From assembly GCF_000143965.1 (NCBI RefSeq), contig NC_014365.1, positions 3,375,501 through 3,439,500 on the forward strand: DNA of 64,000 nucleotides, written 5' to 3'. Positions 1,755-16,500 of the stretch are shown in pieces; within the stretch, counting starts at the first letter, position 1; each line of letters opens with the position of its first letter. The notes under the pieces were generated by a model. It saw nothing but the letters and a program-made list of their open reading frames with translations. It searched no databases and was not told the DNA's origin. A program made the position numbers and the translations under genes. This DNA is from Desulfarculus baarsii DSM 2075 (GTDB lineage Bacteria > Desulfobacterota > Desulfarculia > Desulfarculales > Desulfarculaceae).

Positions 1755-4223
1755 TCAGTCCAGGCTGGGGGCGGTGCCGTCGAGGACGTCGCGGATGACG
1801 CCCAGCAGCTCGTCGAGCTGGTAGGGCTTGGGCAAAAAACCGTCGGGCTTTTGTTCCAGGGCCTGGCCCAGCACGCCCTCGGGCGGGTATCCGCTGGCCA
1901 CCAACACCTTCACGTCGGGCTTTAGCTCGCGCATGCGCTGCAAGCAGCGCCGCCCGCCCATGCCCGGCATGCCCACGTCCAGCACCACCAGGTCGATGCG
2001 CCCGGCCATGGGCTCGAAGACGGTCAGGGCCTCCTCGCCGTTGAGGGCGGTGATGACCATGTAGCCCTCGCGCTCCAGGCCGCGCCGGGCCACGCCCAGC
2101 AGGCGCTCCTCGTCGTCGACGACCAAAATCGTCTCGTGGCCGCCCAGATCGCGGCGGGGCGCGGCGGGCTGGGCCGGGTCTAGGGCGGCGGCCGCCTCGG
2201 GCAGGGCCGGCAGATAGACGCGAAACGTCGCGCCCTGGCCGGGCGCGCTACGGCAAGCGATGCGCCCGCCGTGGCCCTTGACGATGCCATAGGCCGTCGA
2301 AAGGCCCAGGCCCGTGCCGTGGCCCACTTCCTTGGTGGTGAAAAACGGGTCGAAGATGTGGTCCAGGGTCTGTTGGTCCATGCCCTGGCCGCTGTCGGTC
2401 ACTTCCAAAAGCACGTAGGGCCCGGGGCTGAGATCGGGCCGGCCCTGGCAAAAATCCTGATCCACATCCAGGTTGCGGGTGGCGATGGCCAGGCGGCCGC
2501 CGCCGGGCATGGCGTCGGCGGCGTTGACGCCCAGGTTGATGAGCACTTGCTCGATCTGGTTGGAGTCGGCGCTGACCAGGGCCAGGTCAGGGGCCAGGTC
2601 CAGCTCGATGTGGATCATCTTGGGGATGAGGTTGCGCAGCAGCTCCACGCAGCGCTTGACGTCGCTGTTTAGGTCCATGGGGCGGGGCCGGCTTTCGACC
2701 TTGCGACTGAAGGTGAGGATCTGGCGCACCAGGGATTTGGCCCGATCGGCGGCGTAGAGCACCTGGGATATCTCGCCGGCGCAGTCACGCCCGCGGGCGG
2801 CCCGGCTGAGGGCCAGCTCGCCATAGCCCATCACCGCCCCGAGTATATTGTTGAAATCGTGGGCGATGCCGCCGGCCAACGTGCCCAGGGCCTCCATTTT
2901 TTGCGACTGGCGCAGTTGTTCCTCCAGCAGGCGTTTTTCCTCCTCGGCCTTTGTGCGTTCGGTGACGTCGCGAGCCAGGGCCAGCACCAGGTCGCGGCCG
3001 GGGATATCCAAGCTCTTGAGGGTCATTTCCAGTTGCACGGGCTGGCCGCCCTCCTTGACGCTGACCCAGTGAAAAAACTGGGGTTGGCCGCGCCGGGCCA
3101 GGGCCAGCATCCGCCGGGCCACTTCCGGCGAAGGCCGGCCGTCGGGCTGCTCGTCGGGGGAGGCGTCCCAGGCGGGCTTGCCGATCATGCGCTGGCGCTC
3201 GAAGCCCAGCAGTTCCTCGGCGGCGGGGTTGCAGTCCACCAACGCGTCGCCATCAAAGATGAAGATGGCGTCGCTGGAGGCCTCGAACAGGGCCCGGTAG
3301 CGCAGTTCGCTCTCGCGCAGGGCCTTTTGGGCGCGTTTGTCCTGGCTGACGTCGAAAAGCGTCTCGATGGCCCCCACCACCTGGCCGTCGGCGTCCTTGA
3401 GCGGGGCGGCCAGAAAATAGAGCCACGTGGGCGCGCCGCCCAGCGAGGAGAAATGGCCCTCGGCCTGAAAGGCCCCCCGGATCAACGGCGAAGGCTCCAC
3501 GCTGGGGCCGTAGACGCGGCGCATCTCGGCCAGGGGCGCGCCGTCGACGATCAGGTCGGCCAGCAGCGGCCGGTCCTTGCCATAAAAGACCTCGGCGTGG
3601 CGCTGGGAGCGGATGACCTCGTCGGCCGAAAAGTCGGTGAGGGCCTCGCAGGCCCGGTTCCAATGGGTGATGCGGTGGGCGCGGTCGATGACGAACATGG
3701 CCGTGGGGCTGGCGTCGAGGATATTGCGCAGCTCTTGCGCGCCGCGCCGCAGCTCTTCCTGCAAAAAGCGCTCATCGGTGATGTCGCCGAAAAAGCACAG
3801 CACCGCCGGCCGGCCCAGCCACTCCACGCGCACGCCGGCCACGGTCAGCCAGCGCAGGTCGCCGTCTTTGTGGATAAAACGCAACTGATAGTTCTGCGGC
3901 GCGTCGCCGCCGCGCAGGCGGGTCAGGTGCCGCTCGACGATGAGGTCGCGGTCTTCGGGGTGCAGCAGGTCGAAGATGGGCCGGCCCAGCAGTTCCTCGG
4001 GCGCGTAGCCCGAAAAGCGGCTGATGGCCTGGTTGACGAACTGGGCCTTGCCGTCCTGGAAAACGATGACGCCGTTGAGCGAGGCCTCGACGATCATGCG
4101 CAGGGCCGCCTCGCTTTGCTCCAACTCGGCCAGCCGCCGGCGCAGATCGGCCAACTCCCGGCGCGGATCGTCCGGGGCCTGACCGTCGCCGCCTGGCCGC
4201 GATGTTTTTTTCGCCTCCGGCAT
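1755..4223 (-). CDS. PAS-rich hybrid sensor histidine kinase with C-terminal receiver
   Basis: 822 residues. Domain order: short coiled start (1-40), three PAS domains (about 40-155, 165-290, 305-425; the third with [11 protein letters not shown]), HisKA with the H box [11 protein letters not shown] (phospho-acceptor His455), HATPase_c with the N box and [18 protein letters not shown], and a receiver domain with [12 protein letters not shown] (phospho-acceptor Asp749) and the conserved KPY lysine region. There are no convincing transmembrane segments, so it is probably cytoplasmic. A hybrid kinase of this type normally needs a separate phosphotransfer or output partner, which is not adjacent. 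It faces away from the SH3 protein gene, with a dyad symmetry in the shared upstream region. Confidence 0.95.
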
Positions 4224-7468: not shown

Positions 7469-7575
7469 GCGCCGTCGGCGTAACCAGGCCCCTCCGCCAA
7501 ACGATTATGATTGCATGAAGGCCGCTCAGGGAAGGGCGGCCCATGCCTGCCACACCATCAATCGGGAGGATCGCC

Positions 7576-8268
7576 GTGGCCATGGATAGCTCGGCGGCCG
7601 AACTGGGCCTGATCGAGGAGACCTGCCCTTTTTGCGGAAGCAAACAGCCCTATATCCTGGGCGACGGCCGCCGCAAGTGCCGTTCCTGCCGCGTCAAGTA
7701 TACGCCCCTGCGTCGCCCCGGCCGCCTGGACGACGCCCTGATCCAGCGTTTGGCCGGCCATTTCTGGCGCATGGACTCCATCGACCTGACCGCCGGCCAA
7801 CTGGACCTGGATCGCAAAACCGTCCAGCGCTATTTTGGCCTGCTGCGCCGGGCCATCGCCGAGCGTGGCGAACGCCGGGCGGCCATGATCGCCGCCGAGG
7901 CCAAGATCGACAGCCTCTACCTGGGCCGGTTGAGCCCGCTGGGCGGCGTCAAACGTCAAGACACGGTCACGGTCTTTGGCCAGGCCGTGCGTGATGGGCT
8001 GGTGTACCTGATCATGGCCGCGGCCATCGCCGATTGGTCGGGGTTGGATCTGCGGGGCCTGCGCCGCGTGGGTCACGATGGCCGGCCCTTGGCCGACGAG
8101 GACAACGCCTTCTGGCCCTTTGCCCGGCAGCGCCTGAAGCATTACCGCGGCGGCTACAAAAAGCAACTGCCGCTGTATCTGCGCGAGATGGAGTTCCGCT
8201 TCAACCACCGCGACGACCCGGCGGTCATGCAGAAGTTGGCGGCCATGCTGGCGGCCCGGCCGCGCTAG
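7576..8268 (+). CDS. IS1595-like (ISXO2) transposase relative, shortened
   Basis: 230 residues from GTG 7576, chosen because GGGAGGA (7564-7570) precedes it; an ATG at 7543 is less well supported. An N-terminal zinc ribbon (CPFCG...CRSC) is followed by a helix-turn-helix (LDLDRKTVQRYFGLL) and a reduced ISXO2-like domain. The first acidic residue (KIDS, Asp112) and a C-terminal block DNAFWPFARQRLKHY...EMEFRFNHR match the family end, but about 60 residues of the usual catalytic core are missing. No terminal inverted repeats were found, and the gene shares four bases with the convergent acyltransferase, so a recent insertion is unlikely. It may be a domesticated DNA-binding protein. Confidence 0.72.
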   Translation: MAMDSSAAELGLIEETCPFCGSKQPYILGDGRRKCRSCRVKYTPLRRPGRLDDALIQRLAGHFWRMDSIDLTAGQLDLDRKTVQRYFGLLRRAIAERGERRAAMIAAEAKIDSLYLGRLSPLGGVKRQDTVTVFGQAVRDGLVYLIMAAAIADWSGLDLRGLRRVGHDGRPLADEDNAFWPFARQRLKHYRGGYKKQLPLYLREMEFRFNHRDDPAVMQKLAAMLAARPR

Positions 8269-9161
8269 TTGTTTTTGGCCAGCATCTGGCCCAGGCGGCG
8301 GTCTTTTTCCCGCCACAACTCGTTGAGCCAGTCCTGGAAGCGTTGACGGTATTCCAGATCGTTGAAGTAGTCGCCCAACTGCTCCTTGGTGATGGGCATG
8401 GCCTCCACGCGCACGCGCACCTCCTGGACCTTGCCGCACAAAAGGGCCCACATGCCCTTGGCGCCCTTGGGGTAGGCGATGGTCACGTCGAGCATGTGAT
8501 TGAGACAGTGGCCCATGGACGAAAGCACCACGGCGATGCCCGCCGCCTTGGGCCGCAGCAGGTGGGCGTAGGGCGACTCCTGGGCCTGGTGCTTGCCGCG
8601 CGAAAAGCGCGTGCCCTCGACAAAGTTCATCACCGAGATGGGGATGTGCTTGAATTTCTGACAGGCCTTGGCCGTGATGGCCACGTCGCGGCCGGCCAAG
8701 TGGGGCTTCTTGGCCAGCTTGGCCTTGGAATAACGCTTCATGAAGGGGAAATCCAGGGCCCACCAGGCAAAGCCCATGACCGGCACCCAGATCAGTTCCT
8801 TCTTTAAAAAGAACTTCAAAAACGGCACCTTGCGGTTGAACACCCGTTGCAGCACCAGAATGTCGGTCCAGCTCTGGTGGTTGGCCAGCACCAGGTACCA
8901 CTGACGGCGGTCCAGGCCCTCCAACCCGCTCACCTCCCACTCTATCTTGTTGAACAGGCGCAAAATGAAGTTGTTACAGCCGATCCAACTGGTGGCGATG
9001 GTGTTGAGAACCCGGTCGCAGACCTTGCGCCAGGGCCGCCAAGGCACGACGAGCTTGGCGAAGGCGGCGAGGGTCAACACGACGACGTGGGCCAGGGTGT
9101 GCAGAATCATCAGCACGAACGCCAGAGATCCCTTTAGCCATCCGGGCAGTCGGTGGAGCAT
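8265..9161 (-). CDS. PlsC-family lysophospholipid acyltransferase (YihG-like)
   Basis: 298 residues. An N-terminal membrane segment (about 10-35) precedes the acyltransferase motif NHQSWTD (HX4D) and the FVEGTRFSRGK block that binds the glycerol-phosphate acceptor. The family transfers acyl groups to 1-acyl-glycerol-3-phosphate or related lysophospholipids at the inner membrane; length and the extended N-terminus fit the YihG type. A strong minus-strand promoter lies upstream at 9211-9238, and AGGAGAGG precedes the ATG. Convergent with, and overlapping by four bases, the transposase-like gene. Confidence 0.9.
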   Translation of the reverse strand: MLHRLPGWLKGSLAFVLMILHTLAHVVVLTLAAFAKLVVPWRPWRKVCDRVLNTIATSWIGCNNFILRLFNKIEWEVSGLEGLDRRQWYLVLANHQSWTDILVLQRVFNRKVPFLKFFLKKELIWVPVMGFAWWALDFPFMKRYSKAKLAKKPHLAGRDVAITAKACQKFKHIPISVMNFVEGTRFSRGKHQAQESPYAHLLRPKAAGIAVVLSSMGHCLNHMLDVTIAYPKGAKGMWALLCGKVQEVRVRVEAMPITKEQLGDYFNDLEYRQRFQDWLNELWREKDRRLGQMLAKNN

Positions 9162-9210
9162 CTTAGAGCCTCTCCTGGTGAATATTATTCATTTTAGATG
9201 CGGCACTTAA

Positions 9211-9238
9211 AATATAAGTTCGATTGTTGGCCTGTCAA
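9211..9238 (-). promoter_or_regulatory. Sigma-70 promoter for the acyltransferase gene
   Basis: Reading the minus strand, TTGACA (9238-9233), a 16-base spacer and TATATT (9216-9211) lie about 50 bases before the acyltransferase start. Both boxes are near consensus. Confidence 0.7.
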
Positions 9239-9250
9239 TCAATATCCCAT

Positions 9251-9312
9251 GGTTTTTTTGCCCGGTCGCGGCCCCGCCGGCCACGGCCACGGCCGGCGGG
9301 GCCAAAAAAACC
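9251..9312. repeat. Perfect 13-bp GC hairpin flanked by T7 and A7 tracts
   Basis: GGCCCCGCCGGCC (9270-9282) and its exact complement (9291-9303) enclose an 8-base loop. On the plus strand GGTTTTTTT precedes the stem and AAAAAAACC follows it directly, so the tracts are themselves complementary and extend the symmetry. Because the T run comes before rather than after the stem on both strands, it does not fit a simple terminator. It sits in the 355-base gap (9162-9516) between the divergent acyltransferase and transporter genes; no gene is seen there. Confidence 0.6.
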
Positions 9313-9516
9313 TTGCCCGCCGCCAAAGCGCCTTTGCGAAAAATTGCACCAAATGTTACTGTTTGACGGGCGCGGAGAGTCTGTGGAGAGGCTCTCGTCA
9401 GCTCGCCGTTCGCATGGAGCTTGCCCCACGATGGCGCGTGGGGTTGCGGACGACCGGGCCGCGTCAAGTTCACCCTCGCCGATTTCTTGCTGAGCACCAC
9501 TGGAGGAAAACGAGAC

Positions 9517-11091
9517 ATGACCGGTCAAGCGACCCCAACAAGTCAAGGGCCGTCGGGCGGCCTGCCTCCGATGCCAGACACCATTGTCGTGGCGCCGGAG
9601 AAAAAGAGCATCGACTGGAAAAGGCTGATCTTTCTTTTCTTGGGCCTGGGGCTTTTCGCGCTGTTTTTCGCCATGCCCGCCTTTGATCCGGCCGTGGACC
9701 CGCGCAACGAATCATTTCCCCTGACCCGTGAGGCCCAACTGGCGTTGGGCCTGTTTTTGTTGGCCAGCACCTGGTGGATCTTCGAGGTCGCGCCCATCGG
9801 CGTGACCGCCATCATGATCGGCCTGATGCAGGTTCTGTTCTACATCCGCGAGCCCGAAAAGGCCCTGGGCGACTTCCTCTCGCCGCCGGTGTGGTTCATC
9901 TTCGGCTCGCTGGTGCTGGGCATGGCCTTCACCAAGAGCGGCCTGACCAAGCGCATGGCCTACAAGATGCTCAATCTGGTGGGCGAGCGCACCTCGATGA
10001 TCATGCTGGGTTGTTTCGTCATCATCGCCCTGATGACCCACCTGATGGCCCACACCGCCGTGGCCGCGGCCATCTTCCCGTTGTTGATGGCCATCAACGC
10101 CCTCTACACCGACAAGGAAGGCCCCACCAAGTTTGGCAAGGCCCTGTTCATCGGCATGGCCTACGTGGCCGGCGCGGGCTCGATCTGCACCTACCTGGGC
10201 GCGGCCCGGGCGGTCAGCGCGGTGGGCTTCTTCAAGGAGATCACCGGCAACGACATTTCGTTCTTCGAGCTTTCGCAGTTCATGATGCCCGTGGGCTGGA
10301 TCATGGTCTTTTTGCTGTGGGGCTTTTTCATGCTGGTCTTCAAGCCCGAAAAGCCGCGCATCGAAAACCTGCGCGAGCGCGTGGCGGCCCTGGCCAAGGA
10401 GCAAGGCGCCATGACCATCAAGGAATGGCTGGTGCTGATCACCACGGTGGTCGTGGTGGGCCTTTTCATGGCCAAGAGCCTGATCCCCGCCGACGCCGCC
10501 GCCCAGAGCGGTTTCCTGGGCTTCATCAAGGGCATGGACCGGCCGGGCATCATCCTCATCGCCACGATGATCTTCTTCCTGACGGGCGTTTTGGACGTCA
10601 ACGACCTGGAGGCCATTCCCTGGAACATCGTGCTGCTCTTCGGCGGCGCCATGAGCATCGGCTACTGCCTGTGGCAGACGGGAGCGGCCAACTGGATCGC
10701 CGTGCACTGGCTCAACATGTTCACCCAGGCCCCGCCGCTTTTGTTCGTGCTTTCCATCGCCTTCTTGGTGTTGATGATGACCAACTTCATCATGAACGTG
10801 GCGGCCATCGCCATCTGCCTGCCGGTGGCCCTGGTGGTGGGCAAGTACCTCGGCGTCGAGGCCTACGTGATCCTCTTCGCCTGCCTGGTCACCGCCGGCA
10901 TGCCCTTCAACCTGCTCATCGGCGCGGCGCCCAACGCCATCGCCTACGAGTCCAAGCAGTTCACCACGGGCGAATTCTTCACCTGGGGCTGGGTGGCCAA
11001 CGTGATCCTCATGGTGGTGCTGACCCTGGCCATCCTGGTCATCTGGCCCATGATGGGGCTCAGCCTGTTCACCGCACCGGCGGCCGGCTAG
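9517..11091 (+). CDS. DASS/SLC13-family anion:sodium symporter
   Basis: 524 residues; ATG 9517 has TGGAGGAAAA upstream, and an upstream extension of the frame is not needed. A short polar N-terminus is followed by about eleven or twelve hydrophobic segments. Family features include the two half-repeats with THLMAHTAVAAAI and NFIMNVAAIAI at the places where DASS proteins bind sodium and the carboxylate or sulfate-type anion. It would import a divalent anion such as a dicarboxylate or sulfate at the inner membrane. It opens a four-gene unit with a CBS protein, a PEP/pyruvate-binding protein and a beta-helix protein. Confidence 0.92.
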   Translation: MTGQATPTSQGPSGGLPPMPDTIVVAPEKKSIDWKRLIFLFLGLGLFALFFAMPAFDPAVDPRNESFPLTREAQLALGLFLLASTWWIFEVAPIGVTAIMIGLMQVLFYIREPEKALGDFLSPPVWFIFGSLVLGMAFTKSGLTKRMAYKMLNLVGERTSMIMLGCFVIIALMTHLMAHTAVAAAIFPLLMAINALYTDKEGPTKFGKALFIGMAYVAGAGSICTYLGAARAVSAVGFFKEITGNDISFFELSQFMMPVGWIMVFLLWGFFMLVFKPEKPRIENLRERVAALAKEQGAMTIKEWLVLITTVVVVGLFMAKSLIPADAAAQSGFLGFIKGMDRPGIILIATMIFFLTGVLDVNDLEAIPWNIVLLFGGAMSIGYCLWQTGAANWIAVHWLNMFTQAPPLLFVLSIAFLVLMMTNFIMNVAAIAICLPVALVVGKYLGVEAYVILFACLVTAGMPFNLLIGAAPNAIAYESKQFTTGEFFTWGWVANVILMVVLTLAILVIWPMMGLSLFTAPAAG

Positions 11092-11124
11092 GGCGTTTGG
11101 CTTTAGGTCAAGGAGACGAAAGAC

Positions 11125-11628
11125 ATGAACAAGCCTAGTGAACAGAAAAAAGACGTCCGGGCCCTGGTCATTCCTCTGACCGAATACCCGCACATGCCAT
11201 ATTGGGCCACCCTCAAGGAGGCCATCGTCCAACTGACCGTGGCCCAGCAGGCCGTGGCCCCCGGCGGCCGGCGCAAAACGATCCTCGTTTTCGACGAGGC
11301 CTATCGCCTGCGGGGCATGCTGGCCCTCAAGGACGTGCTGCGGGGCGTCGAGCCCAAGTTCAGCCAGAAATACGGCCAGGGCATCCCGGTGTTCTGGGAA
11401 GACCTTTTCGCCCAAAACGCCAAGGCCCAGTTGGTCAAGCCCATCAGCGAGTTCATGAGCCCGGTGGCGGCCACGGTCGAGGCCGGCGACAGCCTGGTCA
11501 AGGCCTCCCACGTCATGCTCGACGCCGGGCTGACCTTGCTGCCGGTGATGGATGGCGGCTCGGTCCTGGGCGTGATCAAGCTGGAGGACATCTTCCAGGA
11601 GATCAGCATGGCCATTTTGTCCATGTAA
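11125..11628 (+). CDS. CBS-domain protein
   Basis: 167 residues, ATG with AAGGAG upstream. Two CBS motifs are visible: one about residues 12-75 (ILVFDEAYRLRGMLALKDVLRG) and a clearer one about 103-165 (ISEFMSPVAATVEAGDSLVKASHVML, then LPVMDGGSVLGVIKLEDIF). CBS pairs usually bind adenosine nucleotides. Lying between a transporter and a PEP/pyruvate-binding enzyme, it may report energy charge to either. No catalytic domain is attached. Confidence 0.88.
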   Translation: MNKPSEQKKDVRALVIPLTEYPHMPYWATLKEAIVQLTVAQQAVAPGGRRKTILVFDEAYRLRGMLALKDVLRGVEPKFSQKYGQGIPVFWEDLFAQNAKAQLVKPISEFMSPVAATVEAGDSLVKASHVMLDAGLTLLPVMDGGSVLGVIKLEDIFQEISMAILSM

Positions 11629-11649
11629 GCCACCGACAAGGTCGCGGCA

Positions 11650-14280
11650 ATGAAGCTGCCTTGGCAAAAAAAATCCGTCGCGGACGGCGGCCGGGAGGCA
11701 ATCCCGGTCGTCGCTCACGGCGGCGTCGCCCCGCCGGCCGACGATAACTCCGGCCGTCAGGACGCCTACTGCCCGTTTTCACGTCGCTACGCCCTGTTCA
11801 AGGGCCTGCTGGCCGACAATAACCGCGCCCTGGAGATCATGGCCGAGCTTCAAGGCAAGATGCACGGCCAATCGTCTTTCAACCGCGCCTTTGTCATCGA
11901 CCGCGTCCAAGCCCTCCAGCGCCACGTCTCCGACATCGTCACCGCCCTCAAGGAAATGGGCCCGGGCCGTTACGACGCCCTCGACGAGGCCCTGGCCGCC
12001 GTAAGCGCGCGCATCCGCGCGGCCACCGGCCGGCCCACGCGCATGACCGACGGCCCGGTGCTGGTCTGGTTCGACGACCTGGATCAAAGCCTGGAAAATC
12101 TGGCCGGCTTCAAGGCGGCCCATCTGGGCGAGATGCGCTCGATCCTGGGCCTGCCCGTGCCCGACGGCTTCGCCCTGACCGCCTCGGCCTACAAATATTT
12201 CATGGATTACAACGATCTGTGGCCCAGGCTGCGCCAGCTGCTGGCCGGCTGCGATCTGGACGATCTCGAGCAGGTCATGACCACCAGCAAGGCCATGCGC
12301 CGCCTGGTGCTGGAGGCCGATCTGCCGGCGCTGCTGGCCGAGCAACTCAACGAGGCCTGCCGCGAACTGGCCCGGCTTTCGCCCGTGGGCTTCGCCCTGC
12401 GCTCCAGCGCCCTGATGGAAGACAACGAACCGGGCCTGGCCGGCCAATACGAAACGCTCTTGAATGTCCCGCCCGAGGACGCCCCTTGCGGCTACAAGCG
12501 CATCCTGGCCAGCCAGTTCAACGCCCAGGCCCTGCGCCGCGCCGCCCGCCGCGAAATGAACCTGGAAGACCTGGCCATGGGCGTGGCCGTGATGGCCATG
12601 GCCGCGGCCCAGTGCTCGGGCGTGCTTTATTCGCTAAATCCCAACGATCCCCAGCGGCAAGTGGTCATGATCAGCGCCGTGCGCGGCCTGGGCGTGGGCG
12701 CGGTGGGCGGGGCGGTGCACTCCAGCCTGTTCATCACCAACAAGGCCGAGCCCATCGAGATCATCAGCGAGGAGATCGCCCCCCAAGAGACCATGGTCGT
12801 GCCCGCGCCCGAATCCAACGTCTATGAAGTGGACGTGCCGGCCCATCTGGCCGAGGAGGCCTGCCTCGATCACGACCAGGTTCGCCGCCTGGCCCGGGTG
12901 GGCCTGATGCTTGAGGAGCACTACGGCCGGCCGGTGGACGTGGAATGGTCTCTGTCCGAGCGGGGTGAGCTGGCCCTTTTGCAGGTGCGGCCGCTACGCA
13001 TCATCCTCAAGGCCTTGCCCCCCATCGACTACCAACGCCAGGTTGAGGGCCACGCGGTGCTCTTGCGGGGCGGCGTCACCGCTTCGCCGGGCGTGGCCAG
13101 CGGCCGGGTGGTCATCTTGCATGGCGACGACGAACTGGCCAAGGTGGCCAAAGGCGACGTCATCGTCGCGCCCAGTAGCCTGCCCGAATACGCCGTGGCC
13201 CTGGAGCACGCCGGCGCGGTGGTCACCGAGATCGGCGGCGCGGCCAGCCACCTGGCCGCCGTGGCCCGCGAGACCGGCGCGCCGGCCCTGTTTGGCGCGC
13301 CCGAGGCCACCAAGCTGCTGGCCGAGGGCCAAATCGTCACCGTCGACGCCGATCGCCAGACCGTCTTCGAGGGCCGGGTCGAAAACCTGCTGCGCCTGCA
13401 CAAGCGACGCATGCTGGCCCTGGGCGAAACGCCGGCCTTCCAGACCCTGGACCAAACCCTCTCGGTGGTCACGCCCCTGCACCTGACCGACCCCCGCGCG
13501 GCCAATTTCACCCCCGAGCATTGCCGCAGCCTGCACGACATCACCCGCTACGCCCACGAAATGGCCATGCGCGAGATGTTCCGCTACGCCGAGGAAAAAC
13601 CCGGCGACGCCAAGGAGGCCAGGCCCCGGCGGCTGCGGGCCGATTTCCCGCTGGAGCTTCTGCTCATCGACATCGGCGGCGGCCTGCGCGCCGGGGGCAA
13701 CCCCCGCGAAGTGACCATGGACGAGGTCATCTCCGCGCCCATGCGGGCCCTGGTGCGCGGCATCGCCTCCATACCCTGGCGCGGCCCTGGCCCGGCCGCA
13801 CCCGAGGCCCTGGCCCGCTCCAAGGAGCAGCGCCTCAAGGAGGCCAGCCAGATCGCGTCAAAACCAAATTACGCCATTTTGTCCGAGAACTACCTGAACC
13901 TGTCGTCGCGCCTGGGCTTCCATTTCTCCACCCTCGACACCTACTGCTCGGCCCAGGCCAACGACAACTACATCCGTTTCATGTTCAACGGCGGTGGGGC
14001 CGACCCCGACCGCCGCCGCCGCCGCACCAGGTTTGTCGGCGAAGTCCTGCGACGCAGCGGTTTCCGCGTCCAACTCCACGAAGATCAACTCCAGAGCCGG
14101 GTGGACAAATACCCCCAAGACAGCCTGGAGGAGATGCTCGAACTGATCGGTCGGCTGTGGGTCTACACCAGGCAAATGGACATGCTCATGTTCAGCGACG
14201 CCGTCGTCGACTGGTACATCGACGAGTTCATGCGCCAGCACGGCGTGGAGGCGGCCCGCGCCTCGTCGGGCAAGACCTAG
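11650..14280 (+). CDS. PEP/pyruvate-binding (PPDK/PEP-synthase-like) protein without C-terminal barrel
   Basis: 876 residues. An N-terminal helical part (about 30-130) is followed by a PPDK_N ATP-grasp region with ALRSSALMEDNEPGLAGQYE (Arg251) and DVEWSL...LLQVRPL (Asp430, Glu432), then a PEP-utilising mobile domain with TEIGGAASHLA, in which His534 is the expected phospho-carrier. The C-terminal about 290 residues do not look like the usual PEP/pyruvate TIM barrel: the catalytic Cys motif (xCGQ) is absent. Instead there is a region with NYAILSENYLNLSSRLGFHF and an Arg-rich patch. So it may carry out ATP-dependent His phosphorylation but act on another acceptor. Not a standard ppsA or ppdK. 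Confidence 0.85.
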   Translation: MKLPWQKKSVADGGREAIPVVAHGGVAPPADDNSGRQDAYCPFSRRYALFKGLLADNNRALEIMAELQGKMHGQSSFNRAFVIDRVQALQRHVSDIVTALKEMGPGRYDALDEALAAVSARIRAATGRPTRMTDGPVLVWFDDLDQSLENLAGFKAAHLGEMRSILGLPVPDGFALTASAYKYFMDYNDLWPRLRQLLAGCDLDDLEQVMTTSKAMRRLVLEADLPALLAEQLNEACRELARLSPVGFALRSSALMEDNEPGLAGQYETLLNVPPEDAPCGYKRILASQFNAQALRRAARREMNLEDLAMGVAVMAMAAAQCSGVLYSLNPNDPQRQVVMISAVRGLGVGAVGGAVHSSLFITNKAEPIEIISEEIAPQETMVVPAPESNVYEVDVPAHLAEEACLDHDQVRRLARVGLMLEEHYGRPVDVEWSLSERGELALLQVRPLRIILKALPPIDYQRQVEGHAVLLRGGVTASPGVASGRVVILHGDDELAKVAKGDVIVAPSSLPEYAVALEHAGAVVTEIGGAASHLAAVARETGAPALFGAPEATKLLAEGQIVTVDADRQTVFEGRVENLLRLHKRRMLALGETPAFQTLDQTLSVVTPLHLTDPRAANFTPEHCRSLHDITRYAHEMAMREMFRYAEEKPGDAKEARPRRLRADFPLELLLIDIGGGLRAGGNPREVTMDEVISAPMRALVRGIASIPWRGPGPAAPEALARSKEQRLKEASQIASKPNYAILSENYLNLSSRLGFHFSTLDTYCSAQANDNYIRFMFNGGGADPDRRRRRTRFVGEVLRRSGFRVQLHEDQLQSRVDKYPQDSLEEMLELIGRLWVYTRQMDMLMFSDAVVDWYIDEFMRQHGVEAARASSGKT

Positions 14281-14321
14281 GCCAACCCCAAACATCTGAC
14301 CCCCAGCAAGGCGCCAGAGCA

Positions 14322-15746
14322 ATGAACGAGATCCAAAACCTGACCGAAAGAATCATCGACCGCGTCAACATCAACCTCAGGGAGCACCACTTCGACGTGG
14401 GGCCGTACGTGCGGGGCATTGTCTCGCCCGAAAAATACATGAAATTCTATGCCTTCTATGGCCTGACCTCGCGGCACCCCGTCAGCCTCAGCTTCAAGAA
14501 CAGCGCCTTGGCCGGCAGCTATTTTCTGGGCAAGTGCCAGGTCGATTTTTCCATCGTCTACAAAACCGACGTGCGCGGCGACGAACTGAAGCAAAAAGGC
14601 GACGTCTTCAAGTTCCGCGGCTTCGAGATCCCCCTGCATGACGACGAGCGCATCCGCATCCAGGACAGCATCATGCACAAGACCCTGGTGCACAATTTCT
14701 CCCACGACCCCGAGTCGCCCGAAGAGTTTTTCATCGTCAGCTCCGTGAGCCTGCACTACGCCAACATCCACGGCGCACCGGTGGAGGGCAGCTTTTTCGG
14801 GCCCTTCGCCACGGTGGACCTGACCACCGTCCACGACAGCGTGGTCGGGGCCTATTCCTACGTGCAGACCGGCGAACTGATGCACAAGCGCATCGAGCCG
14901 GGCCAGGTCTGGATCGCCTCCAAGGAGGACGGCTTCGATTTCCGCTACAGCTATTCGCCCGACGTCCTGGCGCGCTACGTCAAGGTCAACGAAGGGGCCG
15001 ACCCCAGCGGCATTTTCATGGATTTCATCAACGAGCGCAAAAACGACTTCGAGGGCGCCTTCGCCCTGGCCCCCTACGACTACAACCAGGACGTGCCGCG
15101 CGGGGCCTCGGTCAGCAACTATTCGGTGCTCCTGGGCCGCACCAGCCTCAGCGAAAACGTGCTGGTGGCCCAGCGCTGCTACCTGCTCGACGCCCAGATG
15201 GGCGTGGGGGCCAACGCCCAGGAAAACTGCTTTGTCATCAACTCCAAACTGGCCGGTTACAACGTCACCGCCCACGGCGGCAAGATCATCAACGCCGACA
15301 TGGACCGCCAGTGCTTCGTGGGCTTCAACTCCTTCCTGCGCGGCCTGGAGCAACAGCCCCTGAAGGTCGGCCCGGGCTGCATCGTCATGCCCCACACCAT
15401 CATCGACCTGCGCGAGCCCCTGGAGATCCCCGGCGGCCAGGTGGTCTGGGGTCATATCCGCGACAAGCGCGACCTGGAAACCAACAGCATGTCCATCGAA
15501 AACCTGGCCAAGATCCAGGGCGAGATCAGCATGGGCGGCATGCGCTTCCAGGGGGCCGGCGGCGTGCTGGTCGAGGCCTTCAAGCACCGCATCGAGCACA
15601 TCCTGGAGGCCAACGGCGCCTTCTACGACGGCGACAACAATCGCGGCCACGCCCAGGATCACGAGCGCGTCTCTTTCAACATCCTCCAGCCCTACCGCGA
15701 CGGCGCGCGGGCCGGCATCTACCCCACCACCATCATCCAGCCCTGA
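14322..15746 (+). CDS. Left-handed beta-helix (hexapeptide-type) protein of the transporter unit
   Basis: 474 residues from ATG 14322; the frame is open upstream through the previous gene but that part is a shadow. The N-terminal half is mixed (EKYMKFYAFYGLT, SFKNSALAGSYFLGKCQVDFS); from about residue 150 repeated hydrophobic hexads (GSFFGPFATVDLTTVHDSVVGAYSYV, later VLVAQRCYLLDAQMGVGANAQENC) point to a left-handed parallel beta-helix. Such folds often occur in acyl or nucleotidyl transferases, but I see no clear catalytic His. Function unknown; its place as the last gene before a strong terminator ties it to the transporter, CBS and PEP-binding genes. Confidence 0.8.
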   Translation: MNEIQNLTERIIDRVNINLREHHFDVGPYVRGIVSPEKYMKFYAFYGLTSRHPVSLSFKNSALAGSYFLGKCQVDFSIVYKTDVRGDELKQKGDVFKFRGFEIPLHDDERIRIQDSIMHKTLVHNFSHDPESPEEFFIVSSVSLHYANIHGAPVEGSFFGPFATVDLTTVHDSVVGAYSYVQTGELMHKRIEPGQVWIASKEDGFDFRYSYSPDVLARYVKVNEGADPSGIFMDFINERKNDFEGAFALAPYDYNQDVPRGASVSNYSVLLGRTSLSENVLVAQRCYLLDAQMGVGANAQENCFVINSKLAGYNVTAHGGKIINADMDRQCFVGFNSFLRGLEQQPLKVGPGCIVMPHTIIDLREPLEIPGGQVVWGHIRDKRDLETNSMSIENLAKIQGEISMGGMRFQGAGGVLVEAFKHRIEHILEANGAFYDGDNNRGHAQDHERVSFNILQPYRDGARAGIYPTTIIQP

Positions 15747-15752
15747 AACGAC

Positions 15753-15785
15753 CGTGGGGAGGCCACAATGGCCTCCCCACGTTTT
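15753..15785 (+). terminator. Strong rho-independent terminator of the SLC13 unit
   Basis: Perfect 12-bp stem CGTGGGGAGGCC / GGCCTCCCCACG with loop ACAAT (15765-15769) followed by TTTT. It starts seven bases after the beta-helix gene stop. Confidence 0.9.
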
Positions 15786-15802
15786 GCGCCGCCGCCCGCC
15801 GC

Positions 15803-16003
15803 TCAGGCCCCCGACGGCCGGGCCTCAACCATCTTGAAGCCCAGTTCGTCACCGCAGACCCGGCAATAATAGGCGTATTTCTCGCCGTCCGGCAAAACCA
15901 GCAGCAGCTTCAGACGCACCGGCTGGGCTTGGCCGCATTTGGCGCAAAACAGGCTTTGAGCCTCCAGGCCGCCGAAGCCGGCCCCGCCGCGCTGGTCGTC
16001 CAT
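15803..16003 (-). CDS. Small zinc-ribbon protein
   Basis: 66 residues from ATG 16003, chosen because GGAGG lies just upstream; a longer frame exists but has no such site. Two CxxC pairs (CAKC and CRVC) about 30 residues apart frame a short beta region, the pattern of a zinc ribbon. Stand-alone ribbons of this kind often bind nucleic acid or a protein partner. A candidate promoter lies at 16120-16148. No family name is offered. Confidence 0.68.
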   Translation of the reverse strand: MDDQRGGAGFGGLEAQSLFCAKCGQAQPVRLKLLLVLPDGEKYAYYCRVCGDELGFKMVEARPSGA

Positions 16004-16119
16004 GGCCAAACCTCCATCGCTCGCAAATTGCTTGCCGTGCAAGGCGCGCCCTCTGGCGGGCCATCGGTGGCCCGCTCCGGCCACTGCCTGGCCGCATGGC
16101 GTTTCAGGCCGATAACATC

Positions 16120-16148
16120 ATGTTAATACATCGTATTTATTGATTCAA
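16120..16148 (-). promoter_or_regulatory. Candidate sigma-70 promoter for the zinc-ribbon gene
   Basis: On the minus strand TTGAAT, a 17-base spacer and TAACAT, in a locally AT-rich patch in front of the zinc-ribbon gene. Confidence 0.4.
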
Positions 16149-16164
16149 CCATGCAAGGGCCCCG

Positions 16165-16500
16165 TCACGTGCCGATAGCCAGCTCTTCCAGCAGCCGATC
16201 GGCGAAACGCAGGGCGAAATCGCGCTGGGCCTTGCTGGCGTAGCCGATGCAAGGGCAGCGCATGCCCTTGGCCGAGCGCACCAAAAACTCCAGACGCAGG
16301 CAATCGCCGTCCAAGACCACGGCCAGGCGGTGGGGCCCGCAGCTCTGGGCGTGGGCCAATTGCTCGGCGCTCAGCAGGTCTGGCGGCAGATTGAGCCAAT
16401 AGACGTCGCCCAGGTTGCTGGGCTCCAGCACCCGCGCCAGGTGCTCGCGAAGCCTGTCCATGTCGGCGGCGGCGATCTCGTCGAGCAAAAGCGAACGCAT
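16165..16500 (-). CDS. Hypothetical protein, coupled to small membrane protein
   Basis: 111 residues from ATG 16500, whose A is shared with the stop of the gene upstream (TGATG). A mixed alpha/beta protein with one CPC and no signal or membrane segment; the LAVVLDGDCLRLEFLVR stretch looks like paired beta strands. I do not recognise the family. The one-base overlap points to co-translation with the membrane protein and, behind it, pyrE. Confidence 0.62.
   Translation of the reverse strand: MRSLLLDEIAAADMDRLREHLARVLEPSNLGDVYWLNLPPDLLSAEQLAHAQSCGPHRLAVVLDGDCLRLEFLVRSAKGMRCPCIGYASKAQRDFALRFADRLLEELAIGT

Follow-up and report, generated by a model that had tools for sequence, protein, structure and literature searches.

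A four-gene unit of Desulfarculus baarsii combining a probable DASS-family sulfate importer with a CBS protein, a barrel-less dikinase and a beta-helix protein

Sulfate reducers must invest ATP before respiration returns any, and the metering of sulfate entry therefore matters for carbon and sulfur cycling in sediments. In Desulfosarcina variabilis and 26 sulfate reducers, clusters of genes for a DASS transporter, a CBS protein and a two-component system were described as regulated sulfate uptake systems, and the DASS proteins were found to be abundant in proteomes (PMC11887813, published in 2025). The CBS proteins were proposed to sense adenosine 5'-phosphosulfate (APS), ATP, sulfate or sulfide, although the sensing mechanism is speculative (PMC11887813). 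DASS genes of Desulfobacterium autotrophicum were shown to respond to the sulfate level (PMC5840216). Here, we analyzed a 64,000-nucleotide stretch of Desulfarculus baarsii DSM 2075 DNA (contig NC_014365.1, positions 3,375,501 to 3,439,500; hereafter the window), in which four plus-strand genes spanned positions 9517-15746 and were separated by 33, 21 and 41 bp. The genes encoded a DASS/SLC13-family anion transporter (gene 1), a small CBS-pair protein (gene 2), a dikinase resembling phosphoenolpyruvate (PEP) synthase (gene 3) and a left-handed beta-helix protein (gene 4). The comparisons presented below indicated that the association of the four genes was real, was conserved in parts and extended the recently described sulfate-uptake cluster.

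An earlier note on this DNA, made from the sequence letters alone, had proposed these four identities and a same-strand linkage with short gaps. The linkage was evident in the spacing given above, and the identities agreed with family profiles (PF00939, PF00571, PPDK_N plus PEP-utilizers, and homology to 3c8v). The same note had stated that its author knew of no described system with this exact set of genes. This was true of the full set, because we found no paper in the open literature that united the four genes, but the DASS and CBS pair had already been described as a sulfate-uptake cluster (PMC11887813). Like that cluster, the window unit paired a DASS gene with a CBS gene in a dissimilatory sulfate reducer, and many homologous loci carried genes for histidine kinases or response regulators. 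Unlike the cluster, in which the order is CBS-DASS, the window had the order DASS-CBS, and no two-component genes touched the operon. The cluster's Cache-domain histidine kinase was also lacking in the window, where the nearest histidine kinase gene (positions 1755-4223, minus strand) encoded PAS domains rather than a Cache domain. PEP-like and beta-helix genes were not mentioned in the main text of PMC11887813. Thus, what was new was the recurrence of the dikinase and beta-helix families as DASS partners, together with the regulatory idea set out below, and the transporter-CBS pair was already known.

To survey the linkage, 395 Desulfobacterota genomes were searched separately with genes 4, 1 and 3, the surroundings of the matches were gene-called, and families were scored with custom-built profiles. 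The searches yielded 79 distinct DASS loci, and a distance limit of 6 kb was used for neighbors. The counts for the 79 loci were slightly enriched because the loci were reached via DASS, beta-helix or (in two cases) PEP matches, and the loci were not independent because relatives share ancestry. A CBS gene was present in 66 of the 79 DASS loci, and in 65 it was adjacent (less than 400 bp away). Histidine kinase genes were found in 49 loci, response regulator genes in 54, a gene for a second, CitMHS-type transporter in 28, a PEP-like gene in 24 and a beta-helix gene in 18. A cleaner test was provided by 36 beta-helix loci, because these were picked irrespective of DASS. Eighteen of them, from 8 families, had a DASS gene within 6 kb, compared to an expectation of about 0.5%, and in 4 further loci a CBS gene directly adjoined the beta-helix gene.

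The window shared the order DASS-CBS-PEP with four additional genomes of the same family (loci L098, L100, L104 and L156); L160 and L164 appeared to duplicate L156 and L104, respectively. Two loci from another family (L075 and L096) contained all four genes, rearranged, within about 10-12 kb, and the exact run DASS-CBS-PEP-beta-helix was found in the source genome only. The earlier note had named as refuting its proposal the case that the genes are neighbors in this genome alone; this case did not apply, as pairs and triples recurred among relatives. The survey added two concrete conserved partners to the DASS and CBS pair, namely the dikinase family and the beta-helix family, for which one structure (3c8v) has been solved.

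Gene 1 matched PF00939 (Na_sulph_symp) with an E value of 2.5e-44 and 152.5 bits against a cut-off of 27, and it narrowly missed the cut-off of NCBIfam model TIGR00785 (197.9 versus 198.6 bits). Its closest solved relative was VcINDY. The protein resembled VcINDY/SLC13 transporters and the DASS proteins of PMC5840216 in fold and in PF00939 membership, and it was alignable with VcINDY over about 440 residues. Unlike VcINDY, it had both canonical SNT cation/substrate motifs replaced, by AHT at residues 178-180 and MNV at residues 426-428, and both replacements were invariant across 40 relatives. In their wider context, the subfamily had HxMAHT (residues 175-180) and NFIMNVA (residues 423-429) at the SNT motif positions of VcINDY, a replacement that suggests an altered coupling ion or an exchanger. 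Because the subfamily has lost both SNT motifs and DASS members carry many anions, the substrate and coupling ion of gene 1 could not be read from its sequence.

The distribution of the transporter pointed to sulfate. dsrA scored over its cut-off in 187 of the 395 Desulfobacterota genomes and in 70 of the 72 genomes with this DASS, where 34 were expected; the other two were assemblies that were 62-67% complete. Co-occurrence with dsrA was similar for the beta-helix genes (33 of 35 genomes) and the PEP-like dikinase genes (about 132 of 139 genomes). Outside the phylum, six genomes, titled Latescibacterota, Zixiibacteriota and 'Hatepunaea', carried this DASS, and all six had dsr genes, with dsrA over the cut-off in four and weaker or partial matches in two. 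Because of this co-occurrence inside and outside the phylum, the clusters of PMC11887813 and the sulfate-responsive genes of PMC5840216, sulfate was the best-supported cargo, and we infer with good support that gene 1 encodes a probable sulfate importer. The source genome also carried three further PF00939 matches.

Gene 2 matched PF00571 at 1.4e-9, and only its second CBS motif scored. In the alignment, each of the two CBS motifs had a nearly invariant Asp of the ribose type (D70 and D155). The protein is probably an adenine-nucleotide sensor that regulates the transporter, in line with the likely nucleotide sensor of the earlier note. CBS genes were not found near the PEP-like dikinase paralogues at 53 loci free of DASS, and for this reason we regard the CBS protein as a partner of the transporter first.

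Gene 3 matched PPDK_N at 2e-71 and PEP-utilizers at 1.7e-18, and it scored below every NCBIfam cut-off. No PEP/pyruvate barrel domain was found in the Pfam scan, and solved PEP synthases aligned only up to about residue 580. The AlphaFold model (pLDDT 85.7) and the searches outlined an N-terminal helical bundle (residues 42-126), an ATP-grasp domain (150-450), a swiveling phospho-His domain and, from about residue 595 to 865, an alpha/beta domain at the C-terminus. Residues K155, R251, E432, Q445 and H534 were invariant in all 61 aligned homologues, and a PDB profile search matched them to the nucleotide-site residues and the phospho-His of PEP synthases. The phospho-His chemistry suggested in the earlier note for a barrel-less enzyme was supported, as a prediction, by these residues, and family knowledge and the literature likewise lead us to infer that H534 is the residue phosphorylated. 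The protein was therefore like PEP synthase, pyruvate phosphate dikinase and rifampin phosphotransferase in its ATP-grasp and mobile phospho-His domains and in all key residues, but unlike them it lacked the barrel and had its own N-terminal helices and C-terminal domain. The C-terminal domain matched no Pfam family and gave no clear PDB match in a Foldseek search, and it had its own invariant residues (H629, D630, R633, H636, H758, D812 and D844).

The dikinase family (about 860 residues) was present in 139 of the 395 genomes. In a FastTree phylogeny, the gene 3 protein and five others formed one clade with 99-100% support, and all six were DASS-linked. Across the tree, the DASS-linked label was clustered, with 11 changes compared to 25.9 in shuffles, although it still switched several times. 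Of the 53 paralogue loci away from DASS, 31 had a TauE/TSUP transporter gene within 6 kb and 41 had response regulator genes, and members of the TSUP family are themselves putative sulfate transporters (PMC5840216). On the basis of the DASS, TauE/TSUP and response regulator neighbors, the dikinase family travels with sulfur-anion transporters and signaling genes. The DASS-free paralogue loci (L237-L273) often contained genes for TauE/SafE (TSUP) transporters, an unannotated membrane-like protein of about 230 residues, kinases and response regulators, and genes in these loci were often paired. In a relative, locus L022 carried a split PEP-synthase-like pair beside a UbiD-like carboxylase gene, probably for phenol activation of the phenylphosphate synthase type.

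Gene 4 gave only a hexapeptide-loop match in Pfam, but it was a full-length homologue of PDB 3c8v, a putative acetyltransferase of Desulfovibrio desulfuricans G20 (phmmer E value 1.2e-175), and we found no difference between the two. Foldseek placed its AlphaFold model (pLDDT 78) on 3c8v with a TM score of 0.89 and 56% identity in the structural alignment, and hexapeptide acyltransferases and gamma-carbonic anhydrases ranked next. Our literature search found 3C8V only in an unrelated design paper. The invariant blocks of the family (NAQE, TAHG, FVGFN, MPHT and NIHG) argue that gene 4 encodes a working protein. The family profile weakly matched gamma-carbonic anhydrases, including 1v3w at 2.9e-5, and LpxD. 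Only H318 of the family aligned with one of the three zinc-ligand His residues of 1v3w, and a canonical gamma-class carbonic anhydrase was rejected because two of the three zinc His residues were absent. Gene 4 was neither a demonstrated acetyltransferase nor a canonical carbonic anhydrase. Several beta-helix genes distant from DASS adjoined universal stress protein genes. In two genomes (L061:4821-7505 and L063), a gene for a fusion of ADP-forming acyl-CoA synthetase and GNAT lay between the dikinase gene and the universal stress protein and beta-helix genes.

Taken together, these results favored a model in which the four genes form an operon that serves sulfate uptake in a dissimilatory sulfate reducer and in which the CBS protein acts as an adenylate or energy gate, a reading from sequence to which we give an even chance. 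In this model, the DASS protein would import sulfate for respiration, the step for which the case is good. The CBS protein would bind an adenine nucleotide (AMP, ATP or APS) and open or close the transporter according to the energy charge. The ATP-grasp domain of the dikinase would move a phosphate from ATP onto H534 with release of AMP, and the phosphate would then swing to an acceptor, located either in the C-terminal domain or on a partner. AMP and pyrophosphate are exactly the products of sulfate activation, and for this reason the dikinase might most plausibly modify the transporter or relay the energy state to it, perhaps by reading these two products. The beta-helix protein would be an accessory of the DASS/CBS module. 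A broader and unlikely extension is that sulfate reducers use dedicated barrel-less dikinases beside both DASS and TauE/TSUP transporters, and that the phosphate load of H534, acting via the C-terminal domain and together with the CBS adenylate sensor, sets transport in a phosphorelay, so that sulfate enters only as fast as the cell can pay for its activation.

Several points weighed against the sulfate-uptake model. A direct link between the CBS and PEP-like proteins was unsupported, because CBS genes were not found near the DASS-free dikinase paralogues. The co-occurrence with dsrA in part reflects shared ancestry, and the transporter belongs to a family whose members move many anions and to a subfamily that has lost both SNT motifs. 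Many genomes had two or more copies of the dikinase gene, and only 24 of the 79 DASS loci had one within 6 kb. In addition, the model leaves the role of gene 4 unexplained.

The earlier note had favored import of a carboxylate tied to energy charge and phospho-transfer, in which the PEP-like enzyme would act on an imported dicarboxylate. Many DASS members, including VcINDY, are indeed dicarboxylate carriers, but gene 1 had lost both of the motifs with which VcINDY binds Na+ and carboxylate, and no carboxylate metabolism gene recurred among the common neighbor families of the surveyed loci. With the tight dsrA co-occurrence inside and outside the phylum and the assignment of DASS and CBS clusters to sulfate uptake (PMC11887813), sulfate was much the likelier cargo, and we consider the carboxylate proposal improbable. 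Alternatively, the gene 3 enzyme might phosphorylate an organic substrate imported by DASS and be activated by the CBS protein as a subunit, in the manner of phenylphosphate synthase. In Thauera, CBS domains are present in the third subunit of that enzyme. Against this idea, gene 3 was unsplit, a single chain with a different C-terminal domain and no UbiD-type carboxylase gene nearby, and CBS genes accompanied DASS rather than PEP-like genes. The probable synthase-type pairs consisted of two separate genes next to one for a UbiD-like carboxylase (L022), and they matched gene 3 in the two shared domains only. Thus, although phenylphosphate synthase and phenylphosphoamidate synthase both resemble PEP synthase and work through a phospho-His (PMC7500099), we regard this explanation as very unlikely.

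Sulfate might also enter in exchange for internal bicarbonate, with an adjacent carbonic anhydrase supplying the counter-ion and the beta-helix protein taking that slot in the window. Complete acetate oxidation yields two bicarbonates per sulfate, and the loss of the Na+-site motifs from the DASS protein would suit an exchanger. Genes for an LCIB-type carbonic anhydrase (PF18599, 1.1e-52) adjoined DASS in 6 loci (L118, L120, L124, L126, L127 and L130), and genes for a beta-carbonic anhydrase that kept the catalytic Cys/Asp-Arg/His-Cys residues (PF00484, 4.9e-35) lay within 6 kb of DASS in 8 loci (L099, L102, L106, L110, L113, L143, L149 and L151). Carbonic anhydrase and beta-helix genes shared no locus (P = 0.018, with ancestry ignored), a mutual exclusion that was a lead rather than a result. 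The weak match of the beta-helix profile to 1v3w fits the same picture, but the retention of H318 alone among the zinc His residues does not, and carbonic anhydrase genes occurred in just 14 of the 79 DASS loci and in few families. We hold a sulfate/bicarbonate exchange to be quite improbable. The remaining alternative, a DASS-CBS sulfate importer beside unrelated PEP-like and beta-helix genes, drew on the occurrence of the exact order in the source genome only and on the absence of each of the two genes from the vicinity of most DASS genes. Each pairing recurred in several families, far above an expectation of below 1% to a few percent, clades of PEP-like proteins retained the DASS link, and the window genes had short gaps and one shared hairpin. 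Accordingly, chance neighbors were rejected on the recurrence of the pairings across families, and an unrelated placement of the two genes seemed unlikely.

The coordinates of the unit are listed in Table 1. The single strong terminator proposed in the earlier note was borne out in its fold, a perfect 13-bp stem with an energy of -28.3 kcal/mol (z = -6.05), but less so in its tail, since just four T nucleotides followed and a terminator consensus scan, which requires five, did not list it. A GGAGG sequence was located a short way upstream of the gene 1 ATG. A sigma-70 scan returned no plus-strand promoter upstream of gene 1, and a search for riboswitches and other known RNAs over positions 8800-16200 returned none.

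Table 1. Positions of the four genes, the gene 3 domains and the downstream hairpin in the window
Feature	Position	Strand	Basis
Gene 1, DASS/SLC13-family anion transporter, 524 aa	9517..11091	+	PF00939, TIGR00785, VcINDY alignment, family conservation, GGAGG before ATG
Gene 2, small CBS-pair protein, 167 aa	11125..11628	+	PF00571, alignment, adjacency to DASS
Gene 3, barrel-less PEP-synthase-like dikinase, 876 aa	11650..14280	+	Pfam, PDB profile search, AlphaFold, Foldseek, 61-sequence alignment
Gene 3, predicted ATP-grasp nucleotide-binding domain (PPDK_N), residues 150-450	12097..12999	+	Invariant K155, R251, E432, Q445
Gene 3, PEP-utilizers mobile domain, residues 500-569	13147..13356	+	Predicted phospho-acceptor H534 = codon 13249-13251
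Gene 3, C-terminal domain replacing the PEP/pyruvate barrel, residues ~595-876	13432..14277	+	Pfam, alignment, AlphaFold, Foldseek
Gene 4, left-handed beta-helix (hexapeptide) protein, 474 aa, 3c8v family	14322..15746	+	phmmer, AlphaFold, Foldseek, alignment
Terminator-like hairpin	15753..15781	+	13-bp perfect stem, 3-nt loop, then TTTT

Upstream of the operon, a gene at positions 7543-8268 had a weak match to an IS1595-type transposase zinc ribbon. Between a divergent acyltransferase gene and the operon, a strong GC-rich inverted repeat was located at positions 9268-9305, with a T-run on its 5' side and an A-run on its 3' side; its energy was ordinary for its composition (z = -1.5).

The sole SulP gene of the source genome (L274; G000:C1:40000-56000) adjoined histidine kinase and response regulator genes, as in the SulP cluster of PMC11887813. 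Another gene that adjoined it encoded a cytidylate-kinase-like domain fused to a response regulator receiver; in 18 of the 79 loci, this fusion, seen for example at L141:3931-5157, lay no more than 6 kb from DASS.

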